From Alphaproteobacteria bacterium (lineage in GTDB: Bacteria; Pseudomonadota; Alphaproteobacteria; SMXP01), in contig JANQPV010000022.1 of the NCBI GenBank assembly GCA_028285305.1, forward strand, positions 62,001 through 126,000: DNA of 64,000 nt. The letters run 5' to 3'. Every line of letters starts with the position of its first letter. Position 1 is the stretch's first letter. Made by a program: the position numbers and the translations under genes. This document shows positions 54,462 through 60,497 of the stretch, one piece after another. Under the pieces are notes generated by a model that worked only from the letters and a program-made list of their open reading frames with translations, searched no databases and was not told the DNA's origin.

Positions 54462-54697
54462 CGCAGGATTCTTGAACTGTTCGACCACTCTTTCTAAGTT
54501 CCGCTGGTTCAGATCGATCAGGCCTGCGCATTACATAGAGTCATTAGTTAGGAGAGGTGCCGGAGTGGTCGCCCCGCGAGCGGAGCTCGCAGGATTCTTG
54601 AACTGTTCGACCACTTTTTCTAAGTTCCGCTGATTCAGATCGATCAGGCCTGCGCATTACATAGAGTCGTTTATCAGGAGAGGTGCCGGAGTGGTCG
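54462..54697 (+). repeat. Tandem duplication of the tRNA-Ser upstream region and its 5' end
   Basis: Copy 1 (54462-54571) and copy 2 (54588-54697) are about 110 bases each, offset by 126 bases, nearly identical apart from a few substitutions and a short diverged patch. The shared part runs from GCAGGATTCTTGAACTGTTC through CAGATCGATCAGGCCTGCGC to the tRNA start GGAGAGGTGCCGGAGTGGTC. In copy 1 the tRNA breaks off after 21 bases (54551-54571) and is followed by the hairpin GCGAGC-GGA-GCTCGC (54576-54590). Another inverted repeat, GCGTGGCC with GGCCACGC (54421-54428, 54457-54464), stands at the left edge. The rest of 54291-54461 contains nothing I can name. Confidence 0.8.
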
Positions 54698-54764
54698 AAC
54701 GGGGCGGTCTCGAAAACCGTTGTGCCTTAGGGTACCGAGGGTTCGAATCCCTCTCTCTCCGCCA
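54677..54764 (+). tRNA. tRNA-Ser (anticodon CGA)
   Basis: The acceptor strands are GGAGAGG (54677-54683) and TCTCTCC, with encoded CCA at the end. The anticodon loop CTCGAAA sits in the stem GCGGT / ACCGT (anticodon CGA). A long variable arm (TTGTGCCTTAGGGTACC) and the T arm GAGGG-TTCGAAT-CCCTC follow. Both long variable arm and anticodon indicate serine. A broken second copy of its 5' end lies upstream. Confidence 0.93.
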
Positions 54765-55193: not shown

Positions 55194-55769
55194 ATGAGTA
55201 TGGAAGGTCTCGATAGGTGGGCCGATCAAAAGGTCCTCAAATCTCGTGATGTGCCCAAAGCACTAATTGACGAATTCGAGCGTGTGCTCGGCGATGCTAC
55301 TGACGAGCGGCCTTTGCAGGCATTCCTCGCTGAACATCCAGAACTACTTGGACCGCTAGCGGAGCCCGGTGGAGACCTTTGGTGCTTTGATCGACCTCGA
55401 CTTGGCTCCGAACTGATACCCGACTTCCTTCTAGCGAGCGATAGCTCCAGTGGTCTTCGCTGGACGTTGATCGAGCTGGAGGGGCCAAACGAACCAACTC
55501 TGACCAAGAGTGGAGTACCGGCTCGGAAGCTCGCTGGAGCGATGAAGCAAATTCGCGATTGGCGGGGGTGGCTTCGTGACAACATCTCTTACGCGCGGGA
55601 TCAGCTCGGCCTTACAGGAATTCACTCGGAATGTCGGTCTTTAATCGTAATCGGGCGACGCCACAAATTGGATGCGAAAAGAGCATCAGAGTACGGAGCA
55701 TTGTCCAATAATTCGGATGCAGTCATGACGTATGACCGACTGTTGGATATTGCTCGGTCGGGTTCATAA
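55194..55769 (+). CDS. Shedu-like (DUF4263-type) PD-(D/E)xK nuclease family protein
   Basis: The 191-residue protein has a nuclease-like core resembling the SduA / DUF4263 domain: LQAFLAEHPELLGP at the start, LGSELIPDFLLASD with Asp77, WTLIELEGPNEPTLTKSGVP with Glu94/Glu96 and Lys105, and then LAGAMKQIRDWRGWLRDN with Gln119. In Shedu proteins similar residues (Asp, ExK or ExE, KSG, QxxDW) form the active site and the domain defends against phage. N-terminal Shedu extensions are missing here. It is the first gene of a tight three-gene operon; the helicase begins 12 bases after its stop. The family call is by motif reading only. Confidence 0.7.
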   Translation: MSMEGLDRWADQKVLKSRDVPKALIDEFERVLGDATDERPLQAFLAEHPELLGPLAEPGGDLWCFDRPRLGSELIPDFLLASDSSSGLRWTLIELEGPNEPTLTKSGVPARKLAGAMKQIRDWRGWLRDNISYARDQLGLTGIHSECRSLIVIGRRHKLDAKRASEYGALSNNSDAVMTYDRLLDIARSGS

Positions 55770-55781
55770 GTAACGAGGCTT

Positions 55782-57623
55782 ATGATGGAGAATAATGATA
55801 TTGCGAAGTTTTTCTCGGAGACCCACTGTCAGATTTGGGGCAATCCCTCGCTTCGGGAGCCCCAAGTCGAGGGTTACTTTGCAATACGCGATCACTTCAA
55901 GAATTCCAGTTCTCCCTGCTATGCGCAGTTACCGGTCGGATGTGGCAAGACCGGCCTGATGGGTTTAGTGCCATTTGGGATCGCACAAGGTCGTGTGCTA
56001 ATTATCGCCCCAAATCTAACCATACGCGGGACAATCAAGCGTGAATTGAACATTGGAACGCCGGATTGCTTCTATGTAAAGCGCGGCGTCTTCACCCCTA
56101 AGGATGGCCCTTTCATCTCGGAACTCAAGAGCGGTGCGAACATTCACGATTGCGACGCTGCGCATATCGTGATCGCCAATATTCAACAGTTCAAGGGCAC
56201 CAACAACAGGTGGTATGAGGCTTTTCCGCGTGACTACTTTGATATGATTCTCGTGGATGAAGGTCACCACAACGTTGCCGACACGTGGATGAGGCTTTTC
56301 GATTATTTTGGAGAGGCCAAAGTCGCTTCATTTACTGCGACGCCGATGCGTTCGGACGGGCAAGTCGTCTCGGGTGAGTGCGTTTATCGCTTCGGCTACA
56401 CGCGGTCGATGGTGATGGGCTTCATTTCGCAGATAGAAGCCGTCTTTGTCACGCCCAAGGAATTAACATTCACCGCTAAGGGGGAGACCAAGCAATTCAC
56501 GCTCGGTGAAGTGATCAAAATGAGGGACAAAGATTGGTTTAGCAAAGGGATCGCTCTCTCAGACGAATGCAACAAGAGCGTGGTAGCTGCATCCCTCCAA
56601 CAGCTGCACAAAGTGCGAGAACTCGGAACACCTCGTCAATTGATTGCGGTTGCTTGTTCCATTCGGCATGCGAACCAAGTGGCAGCTCTTTACCGAGCGC
56701 ATGGTCTTAACGTGGAGGTGATTCACAGTGAACTGCTCGCTGATGAACGGGCTCGCGTCGAGGCGTCTTTGCGTTCCGGGTTCACCGATGTGATCGTTCA
56801 AGTGAACATGTTGGGCGAAGGATATGACCTCGCTTCTCTTTCGGTGGCGGCCGTGTTTCGGCCATATAGAAGTCTTTCGCCCTATATCCAATTTGTTGGG
56901 CGCATTCTTCGCCTCGCTCAACCAGAGGTGCCATTCTCTCCCGCAAACCAGGTATTTTTAGTTTCGCATATCGGTTTGAACGATGAGAGGTGGTGGAAGG
57001 ATTTCACGAACTTCGACAAAGAGGACCAAGAGTTCTTCCGCGATTTCCTAGAAGGCGAAGAGACGATAGAGCGAAGAGACGGTGGTCCACGCCTCAGCTT
57101 GCGACCTTTTATGCGGGTCTTGAGCGAAGTGGTCGAGAGCTACCAAAAGCGCGGGTACTTGAAGCGTATCGATAACGTGATGATTCAAGACTTGTTCGAG
57201 ACAATTCGGCAAAAGGGCTTTGAACCGAGTGAATTTGGTTTAACCGAAGAATTGATGCGTCTGCGGATTGAAGTTTCGCAATCGGAGACGCAAATACCCG
57301 CGTTCAACCCAATCGTTCAGCCTCAAGATGAACGAGAAGCCCTGCGTGGGCGATTGATGCCTGAAGCTCGGGCAATAGCCGATGCAGTCATAAACCGTCT
57401 CGAAATCAATCATCAGGGACGCGACTTGCTTAAGTATTTTGGAGGTAGTGGTGCGCACAATTCTGAGATTCTGATCCGTTTGGCGAACGCTGAGCAGAAC
57501 AAGGCTATGGGAATCAAAGATGGGGAAAGAGACAAAGCGTCCAACGATCAAATTCAGCGAGGTGTCGAAGCATCTGCTGACATTGTAGACAAACTGACGG
57601 CGTTGGTGCGCGGAAAGATGTGA
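55782..57623 (+). CDS. Superfamily 2 DEAD/DEAH-type helicase
   Basis: The 613-residue protein has all main SF2 motifs: Q-region PSLREPQVEGYFAIRDHF, Walker A LPVGCGKTGLM (Gly53-Thr57), motif Ia LIIAPNLTIRGT, motif II LVDEGHHN (159-164), motif III SFTATPMRS (183-191), motif IV/V VIVQVNMLGEGYDLASLSVA (338-356, with GEGxD) and motif VI QFVGRILRLAQ (Arg374, Arg377). This is the ResIII/UvrB-like layout used by restriction and anti-phage helicases. The C-terminal 180 residues are unknown. No nuclease domain is fused; the nuclease is the previous gene. The third gene begins one base after its stop. Confidence 0.85.
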   Translation: MMENNDIAKFFSETHCQIWGNPSLREPQVEGYFAIRDHFKNSSSPCYAQLPVGCGKTGLMGLVPFGIAQGRVLIIAPNLTIRGTIKRELNIGTPDCFYVKRGVFTPKDGPFISELKSGANIHDCDAAHIVIANIQQFKGTNNRWYEAFPRDYFDMILVDEGHHNVADTWMRLFDYFGEAKVASFTATPMRSDGQVVSGECVYRFGYTRSMVMGFISQIEAVFVTPKELTFTAKGETKQFTLGEVIKMRDKDWFSKGIALSDECNKSVVAASLQQLHKVRELGTPRQLIAVACSIRHANQVAALYRAHGLNVEVIHSELLADERARVEASLRSGFTDVIVQVNMLGEGYDLASLSVAAVFRPYRSLSPYIQFVGRILRLAQPEVPFSPANQVFLVSHIGLNDERWWKDFTNFDKEDQEFFRDFLEGEETIERRDGGPRLSLRPFMRVLSEVVESYQKRGYLKRIDNVMIQDLFETIRQKGFEPSEFGLTEELMRLRIEVSQSETQIPAFNPIVQPQDEREALRGRLMPEARAIADAVINRLEINHQGRDLLKYFGGSGAHNSEILIRLANAEQNKAMGIKDGERDKASNDQIQRGVEASADIVDKLTALVRGKM

Positions 57624-57624
57624 G

Positions 57625-57861
57625 ATGCCAAGACCAAAGCTCATGATCAAGAGGACCTCGGTTGAGATCGCTAAAGGTACGCGTACATGCGCTTTTTCTC
57701 GTGAAAAGATCAAGAAAGGTGAAGTATGCATCGTGCTTTACGAGGATTCGAGAGACCGCTATGTGTACAGTGGAGCCGTGGCTCTCAAGATGATCACCAT
57801 GGCACGTGATCGTCTTAGCGAAATCGAAGCTGCGCTGAAAGGCGGCACGGCTTTGGACTAA
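57625..57861 (+). CDS. Small protein of the nuclease-helicase operon (78 aa)
   Basis: The ATG is one base after the helicase stop, a sign of coupled translation. The N-terminal half is basic with a C-x12-C pair (Cys22, Cys35) around GTRTCAFSREKIKKGEVCIV; the KKGE turn resembles the knuckle of zinc-ribbon or PARP-finger-like proteins but only two Cys are present. The C-terminal half is a helix (ALKMITMARDRLSEIEAALK). I do not recognise a family. It may be an accessory, inhibitor or sensor of the module; this is inference. Confidence 0.6.
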   Translation: MPRPKLMIKRTSVEIAKGTRTCAFSREKIKKGEVCIVLYEDSRDRYVYSGAVALKMITMARDRLSEIEAALKGGTALD

Positions 57862-57988
57862 CAAGCTCGAACCGCCCACTAAGGGGTGTCAGCCACCCAC
57901 AGAACATCTTCCACTTCTTCCGGCGTTCACGGTAGATGCGCTTACAGCCTTACTGTTTTTGTCCGCTGTCGTGTCATCTTGGCGACGA

Positions 57989-58188
57989 GGAGGAATGGGT
58001 GTATTGCGGTCGACCGACTGCTCATCCCATCGATAGGAAACCTCAAGACGGCGTGTCAGATCTTCCGCGAATAAGAGCGAAGAGTGGTCGCCACGCAGAA
58101 GCCTTTCAACGATACGGGGACTGAGGAAACCGAGAGGCAACAGCCGGGCCACATAATTCGGTGCAATGTCGTTCTGCGTCTTTCGTCT
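57989..58188 (-). pseudogene. Serine-recombinase C-terminal fragment (relic A)
   Basis: On the minus strand the frame reads RRKTQNDIAPNYVARLLPLG, then FLSPRIVERLLRGDHSSLLF, then AEDLTRRLEVSYRWDEQSVD. This matches the tail of large serine recombinases, where a helix-turn-helix (IxxxYVxRLLxLxxLxPxIVExIL) is followed by LtxxxLlxxxLPLxWxEQR. The catalytic domain is gone. A closely similar decayed piece lies at 60062-60187. Its 3' part abuts the dioxygenase gene. The rest of 57862-57988 shows nothing further. Confidence 0.65.
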
Positions 58189-60061: not shown

Positions 60062-60187
60062 CGCGACATCAAGAGGACGTGTCAGCTCCTGTGCGGGTAG
60101 GAGTGATCAGTGTTTTCTCTCGAAGAGTTGCTGGGTGATACGGGGACTGAAGAAGTCGTGGGGTAAACGCTGGGTTACATATCTCGG
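60062..60187 (-). pseudogene. Serine-recombinase C-terminal fragment (relic B)
   Basis: On the minus strand the frame reads GLSPRYVTQRLPHDFFSPRI then TQQLFERKH, a stop codon (TGA at 60109-60107), and continues SLLPAQELTRPLDVAN. Aligned with relic A (IAPNYVARLLPLGFLSPRIV then ERLLRGDHSSLLFAEDLTRR) it is clearly the same family, broken by a stop. It supports past integration or transposition around the dioxygenase and LysR genes. Confidence 0.65.
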
Positions 60188-60224
60188 TGAGAGGCCGTTC
60201 GGCCTCGCCGTGGGCCGCCTCTCC

Positions 60225-60497
60225 TCACACCTTTTCTTTTTCTCTTGGTGCGGAGACGCGGCGGGGTTTGGCTCTGAATTTTGGTTTGGGAAGGAGCCGA
60301 AAGCGTGTTTGGCACCACGCGAACTCGACGCCGACATCCAGCAAGGCGTCAGACCGTCCACAGGGGCACGCAAAATCCCAGACCTCCCGAACCCGGTAGG
60401 TCTCTCCCTCAACTAGAGGCACAGGCTCCCCCGTTACGTGATTGGGGGCCGCATTCACGCATAGAACTAGATCGCCAGGACCGACAGCATCACTCAT
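60225..60497 (-). CDS. Small conserved-looking cysteine-containing protein (90 aa)
   Basis: The protein reads as a compact domain: GDLVLCVNAAPNHVTGEPVP, LVEGETYRVREVWDFACPCG, then LLDVGVEFAWCQTRFRLLPK and a basic tail. Cys residues occur as CPCG plus two others, so a metal site is possible. The layout (start with a GDLVLCV strand, GxxYxVR strand, Cys pair, then CxxRFRLLP) resembles short proteins common in alphaproteobacterial genomes and prophages, but I cannot name the family. The opposite-strand frame here is a shadow. Confidence 0.6.
   Translation of the reverse strand: MSDAVGPGDLVLCVNAAPNHVTGEPVPLVEGETYRVREVWDFACPCGRSDALLDVGVEFAWCQTRFRLLPKPKFRAKPRRVSAPREKEKV

Follow-up and report, generated by a model that had tools for sequence, protein, structure and literature searches.

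A group of three genes in the window, the 64,000-nucleotide stretch of alphaproteobacterial DNA analysed here, encodes a Shedu-type nuclease, an SF2 helicase and a 78-residue protein. From genomic context and by analogy with known systems, we lean towards the view that this trio is a mobile DNA-conflict cassette, most likely antiphage or antiplasmid, in which the helicase and the small protein would survey DNA and the Shedu protein would act as the effector, probably by cutting invading phage or plasmid DNA. A first-pass annotation of the sequence had proposed a nuclease-helicase defence system with the Shedu nuclease as a separate subunit. The Shedu identity and the joint movement of the three genes stand, but the broadly conserved unit is the helicase with a small downstream protein, and Shedu is an added effector in two known loci only.

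Gene organization and insertion site

The three open reading frames are intact and lie on the same strand, in the following setting:

54677-54764, plus strand: tRNA-Ser(cga), the insertion hotspot beside the module
55194-55769, plus strand: Shedu-type nuclease (SduA_C, PD-(D/E)xK), 191 aa, without an N-terminal sensor domain (Pfam, PADLOC, 8ti8 profile match)
55422-55424, 55473-55475 and 55479-55481, plus strand: predicted catalytic residues D77, E94 and E96 of the nuclease (alignments to relatives and to 8ti8)
55506-55508 and 55548-55550, plus strand: K105 and Q119 of the nuclease (conservation in Shedu relatives)
55782-57623, plus strand: SF2 helicase with a RadD/XPB-like core, 613 aa (Pfam, AlphaFold2 model, fold search, family tree)
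57625-57861, plus strand: 78-aa helicase-partner protein, predicted treble-clef fold closest to PARP-type zinc fingers (26-member alignment, model, fold search)
57889-58152, minus strand: C-terminal relic of a large serine recombinase (52% over 48 aa, E=3e-14, against the L107 (G001) recombinase)

The first-pass annotation had described three same-strand genes separated by 12 and 1 bases, next to a tRNA-Ser gene and near recombinase relics. The coordinates agree with gaps of 12 nt between the nuclease and helicase genes and 1 nt between the helicase and small genes, the tRNA-Ser was found upstream of the trio, and the relic downstream aligns to the C-terminus of an intact recombinase (556 aa, Resolvase PF00239 E=3.2e-40) that lies beside the same tRNA-Ser in a family relative, G001. 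A possible second recombinase relic occupies 60107-60412 on the minus strand, where the DNA from 60137 to 60206 is 73% identical to 58111-58180. A partial second copy of the tRNA-Ser upstream region and 5' part (93% over 72 nt) was also seen at 54500-54571, 126 nt ahead of the real gene.

The GC content of the module region is approximately 51%, versus 55-58% in both flanks, and the trio is surrounded by housekeeping genes, without other defence genes, a setting that speaks against the defence reading. In the relative G004 the gene order obgE-rpmA-rplU leads to the same tRNA-Ser and the module is absent after it. The tRNA-Ser is followed in G001 (L107:1305-4775) by genes for a GmrSD_N-domain protein, the large serine recombinase and a DUF2924 protein, and in G003 by a gene for a DUF4238 protein. 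Since the same tRNA-Ser is followed by differing genes in these three relatives, and since the window helicase is absent from all four family relatives searched, the module lies at a tRNA insertion hotspot; the gene set of G001 suggests that this is a hotspot for defence cargo in the host's family. The tail of the tRNA, searched for as an att-site repeat, occurs in a single copy within the window, and no sigma-70 promoter or terminator was found in the trio region by simple consensus.

A Shedu-type nuclease without a sensor domain

The first protein matches the Pfam family SduA_C (PF14082) with E=2.8e-15 and 57.2 bits (cut-off 27) over residues 36-184, reaching the end of the profile, as well as 14 PADLOC SduA models (best E=8.6e-18). 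A profile made of this protein and five relatives matches the solved SduA of B. cereus, 8ti8 (E=3.5e-7). The profile searches thus bear out the assignment to the Shedu (DUF4263) nucleases, which had been read from the motifs PDF (76-78), IELEGP (93-98), TKSG (104-107) and QIRDW (119-123), all of them present. Residues D77, E94, E96 and Q119 are invariant in six aligned Shedu sequences (the window and five relatives), and K105 is found in five of the six. The predicted active site has ExE (ELE) where canonical Shedu proteins have ExK (EIK in 8ti8): D77 and E94 are retained, E96 takes the position of the ExK lysine and K105 is close by.

As had been pointed out, the protein is short, its 191 residues forming almost entirely the nuclease domain. 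In type I Shedu proteins, regulation comes from attached sensor domains (PMC12409362, PMC12904381). Here the SduA_C match begins after just 35 residues, so that the attached N-terminal sensor domain is missing. Short stand-alone Shedu genes exist elsewhere (171 aa in L013, and likewise short in L012, both without a window-type helicase), so shortness by itself is no proof. The window's is the single SduA_C protein of the host genome, no further match to the nuclease profile was obtained in 399 sampled genomes of the phylum, and the nearest plasmid-borne Shedu genes, of Rhodococcus and Leptospira, have no window-type helicase adjoining them.

The helicase and its small partner

The second protein contains the helicase motifs noted earlier, GCGKT (53-57; Walker A K56), DEGHH (159-163), TATP (185-188) and GRILR (373-377), and matches the Pfam families ResIII (E=1.6e-21) and Helicase_C (E=3e-11). 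Its AlphaFold2 model (mean pLDDT 76.9) is of very low confidence at residues 413-463 and confidently helical over the C-terminal ~100 residues (~511-613), a region with no family assignment. RadD provided the top eight matches of this model in the PDB (E down to 3.8e-16); the modelled fold is nearest to this repair helicase, but the identity is ~18-20% and the C-terminal region is different. The identification as RadD proper was rejected, the NCBIfam RadD equivalog giving 43.7 bits against a cut-off of 720.

The third protein has 78 residues with two cysteines, C22 and C35, as described at first pass. It belongs to the family that most often partners this helicase, and is more than a mere accessory. 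In an alignment of 26 proteins encoded downstream of such helicases, which includes those of the window and of the gammaproteobacterial locus L003, C22 is invariant. The model of the protein is confident (pLDDT 89.8), and the best 24 matches found by Foldseek in the PDB are all zinc fingers of PARP1 or DNA ligase III, with PARP1 first (probability ~1.0, best E=0.03, TM ~0.55), which makes a PARP-finger-like fold likely as far as the model goes. The nearest solved fold is thus the PARP-type zinc finger (PARP1 Zn1/Zn2, DNA ligase III), but the zinc ligands are mostly lost in the window copy, which keeps C22 alone, without three of the four putative ligands. Several relatives have also lost part of them, and several show CxxC..CxxC or C..H..CxxC. 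The best Pfam zf-PARP match in the family (E=0.0079) is out of register, and the window copy has no match at the sequence level; an assignment to zf-PARP by sequence was discarded, the matches being weak in two members and out of register in the one inspected. PARP1 zinc fingers bind DNA breaks, and the modelled fold offers break binding by the small protein as a lead. A tblastn search of plasmids with the small protein matched none, though positional relatives exist there, since the sequence is too short and diverged for such a search.

The same trio in an unrelated genome

The linkage of the three genes was looked for in other genomes, and the same order was found in L003, a metagenome-assembled genome (MAG) of unrelated Gammaproteobacteria, with identities of 53, 70 and 57% for nuclease, helicase and small protein. 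This is the sole trio match in a collection of 84,980 species genomes, scanned with short exact peptide patterns that detect only fairly close relatives. The open reading frames of L003 overlap by 8 nt (nuclease/helicase) and 14 nt (helicase/small gene), and the trio stands between an AbiEii toxin gene (E=1.9e-61) and a gene for a type IIG restriction enzyme (E=2.1e-269), flanks unrelated to those of the window. The order kept amid unrelated flanks argues that the three genes travel as a unit. The window and L003 are the only two loci known with both Shedu and this helicase; alignments of the nuclease, of the helicase (two rows) and of the small protein yielded no additional Shedu-bearing locus in viral contigs.

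In a tree of 35 helicases the window and L003 sequences group together on a long branch (support 100/100); their neighbours in the tree, placed there with moderate support (81/94), are helicases with an HTH domain at the N-terminus. Neither of the two has the fused HTH, and the Shedu gene stands in front instead. These data bear on an alternative that we consider unlikely, in which a minimal, self-sufficient Shedu nuclease and an independent helicase/small-protein module simply happen to be carried side by side. It would account for helicase pairs being usually without Shedu and for the short Shedu genes of L012 and L013, but order and near-overlapping spacing are kept in two loci that belong to different classes and have unrelated flanks, the three genes have diverged in step, and the two helicases form their own branch devoid of the HTH of their nearest relatives.

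A widespread helicase/small-protein pair

Helicases 27-47% identical to that of the window are found on plasmids of Paracoccus, Rhizobium, Mesorhizobium, Rhodococcus, Xanthomonas, Acinetobacter, Salmonella, Klebsiella, Pasteurella, Bacillota and Leptospira, both conjugative and small mobilisable plasmids being among the carriers, as well as in proviral contigs of IMG/VR and in a few chromosomes. Their distribution is patchy (4/385, 3/399 and 2/369 genomes, the query genomes counted in). Searching a phage collection with the helicase returned distant phage helicases only, none with more than 80% coverage. Wherever a fetched locus has an intact helicase and readable DNA beyond it, a small open reading frame begins in the interval from about -50 to +30 nt relative to the helicase stop codon. 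These are approximately 30 pair loci, spread over Proteobacteria, Actinomycetota, Bacillota and Leptospira; the only exceptions lie at the end of a contig or record, apart from L009, where the helicase is truncated. At most loci the partner is the family of 26 aligned members, of ~70-100 aa with the invariant cysteine and in many cases a C..H/C..CxxC pattern. A deep clade that comprises Bacillota, Leptospira, Pseudomonas and Pasteurella has a different protein of 110-150 aa in its place.

Shedu is absent from most pairs, and no nuclease is recognisable with most homologues; the pair may thus have another role. One such role, which we regard as quite improbable, is that of a plasmid or phage accessory for replication, recombination or repair, with Shedu as cargo. 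The RadD-like fold would fit it, as would a Pasteurella helicase that lies beside a prophage-type repressor region and the mobilisable Enterobacterales plasmids of 5.9-6.2 kb (L023:1-2918, L008:3263-6176), in which rep, the helicase gene and a zinc-finger-like gene overlap in one operon, the helicase overlapping rep in the 5.9-kb plasmids. Most homologues, however, are away from replication genes, chromosomal copies are patchy, and many copies have restriction, toxin or recombinase genes as neighbours. As a descriptive listing, the neighbours include a DpnII restriction-modification system (L007), a BsuBI/PstI restriction-modification system (L024), a PtuA/PDC-M01 Septu-like pair (L085) and serine recombinase genes (L004, L005, L025, L086, L094).

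Carriage on plasmids, very small ones included, and in prophages is frequent enough to raise a further alternative, to which we give little credence, namely that the function is chiefly antiplasmid or inter-element competition, mobile elements using the pair to destroy rivals that enter the same cell. Both full trios, however, are on chromosomal or MAG contigs, and carriage by mobile elements does not reveal the target.

Comparison with known defence systems

The window nuclease has the same SduA_C domain as Shedu, with the D, E and Q positions conserved in both, but Shedu is a single-gene system, whereas the window nuclease has no sensor domain, belongs to a multi-gene operon and carries ExE instead of ExK. 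Hachiman (HamAB) likewise places a gene for a small PD-(D/E)xK nuclease before a separate SF2 helicase gene. It differs in its nuclease (HamA is DUF1837, that of the window Shedu), in its helicase (HamB is Ski2-like, that of the window RadD/ResIII-like) and in having no small partner of the window type, and neither the HamA models of Pfam and PADLOC nor a HamB model matched the window proteins. Gabija (GajAB) and AbpAB have the logic of a nuclease and helicase operon in common with the window, but both protein families differ. No match to the models of GajA (ATPase-TOPRIM) or GajB (UvrD helicase) was obtained in the window, in a search that recognises true Gabija in L015. Hachiman, Gabija, AbpAB and type I, III and IV restriction were discarded as identities, none giving a full-length model match.

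The window proteins give no match to any named multi-gene system of PADLOC 2023, Pfam or NCBIfam, and the searches of open-access full texts, to which the literature search was confined, gave no description of a system of Shedu, SF2 helicase and small protein, or of the helicase pair. The first-pass statement that no described system has this gene set holds for these sources.

Proposed function

We infer the defence role from genomic context, and likewise infer the formation of a complex, the sensing of ends or breaks and the licensing of the nuclease. In the cassette that we favour, the helicase and the PARP-zinc-finger-like protein would bind invader DNA at ends, nicks or intermediates of replication or recombination. 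The sensor-less Shedu nuclease would be bound by the helicase complex, or brought to it, and would cut DNA after the helicase has engaged its substrate. The model for this is Hachiman, where HamB, a helicase acting as sensor, first holds the nuclease HamA in check and then switches it on (PMC12278908).

Effectors appear to be added in comparable ways elsewhere. A plasmid of Priestia megaterium (L015:1043-5840) carries a complete Gabija (GajA E=5e-287, GajB E=5e-231) followed 6 nt on by a gene for a 291-aa Shedu-type protein, which may represent a combination of Gabija and Shedu. In Leptospira plasmids (L011:4149-7223, L030:4149-7223) a caspase gene (PF00656 E=6.6e-14) lies 90 nt upstream of the homologous helicase, whose partner has 110 aa; the caspase is absent from the Bacillota relatives L085 and L086. 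Together with the nuclease-protease pairs and effector swapping between defence systems reported previously (PMC12799240), we count these parallels in favour of the cassette.

A broader proposal, which we hold more tentatively, is that the pair represents an unrecorded defence family of several phyla, a RadD-like helicase with a PARP-zinc-finger-like break reader on plasmids and prophages, served by interchangeable effectors (Shedu here, a caspase in Leptospira). If correct, it would separate break sensing from killing, and the use in bacterial immunity of a PARP-like finger that binds breaks would be relevant to how eukaryotic DNA-damage sensors arose. If the trio works as proposed, the Shedu nuclease core, described so far with attached sensors, would be run in trans by a helicase. 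The pair was missed by PADLOC 2023 despite its presence on plasmids of Salmonella, Klebsiella, Acinetobacter, Xanthomonas, Rhodococcus and others, and the trio, at 2.7 kb, is small enough for direct testing.

Other arrangements were also seen around homologous helicases. On a Rhizobium plasmid (L006:7761-11166) a gene for an ATP-binding protein is followed after 10 nt by that of a 476-aa Shedu protein, approximately 0.9 kb downstream of the helicase. In a Gammaproteobacterium (L094:77-1402) a 441-aa protein without a Pfam match, a candidate added effector, is encoded 83 nt ahead of the helicase of the pair.
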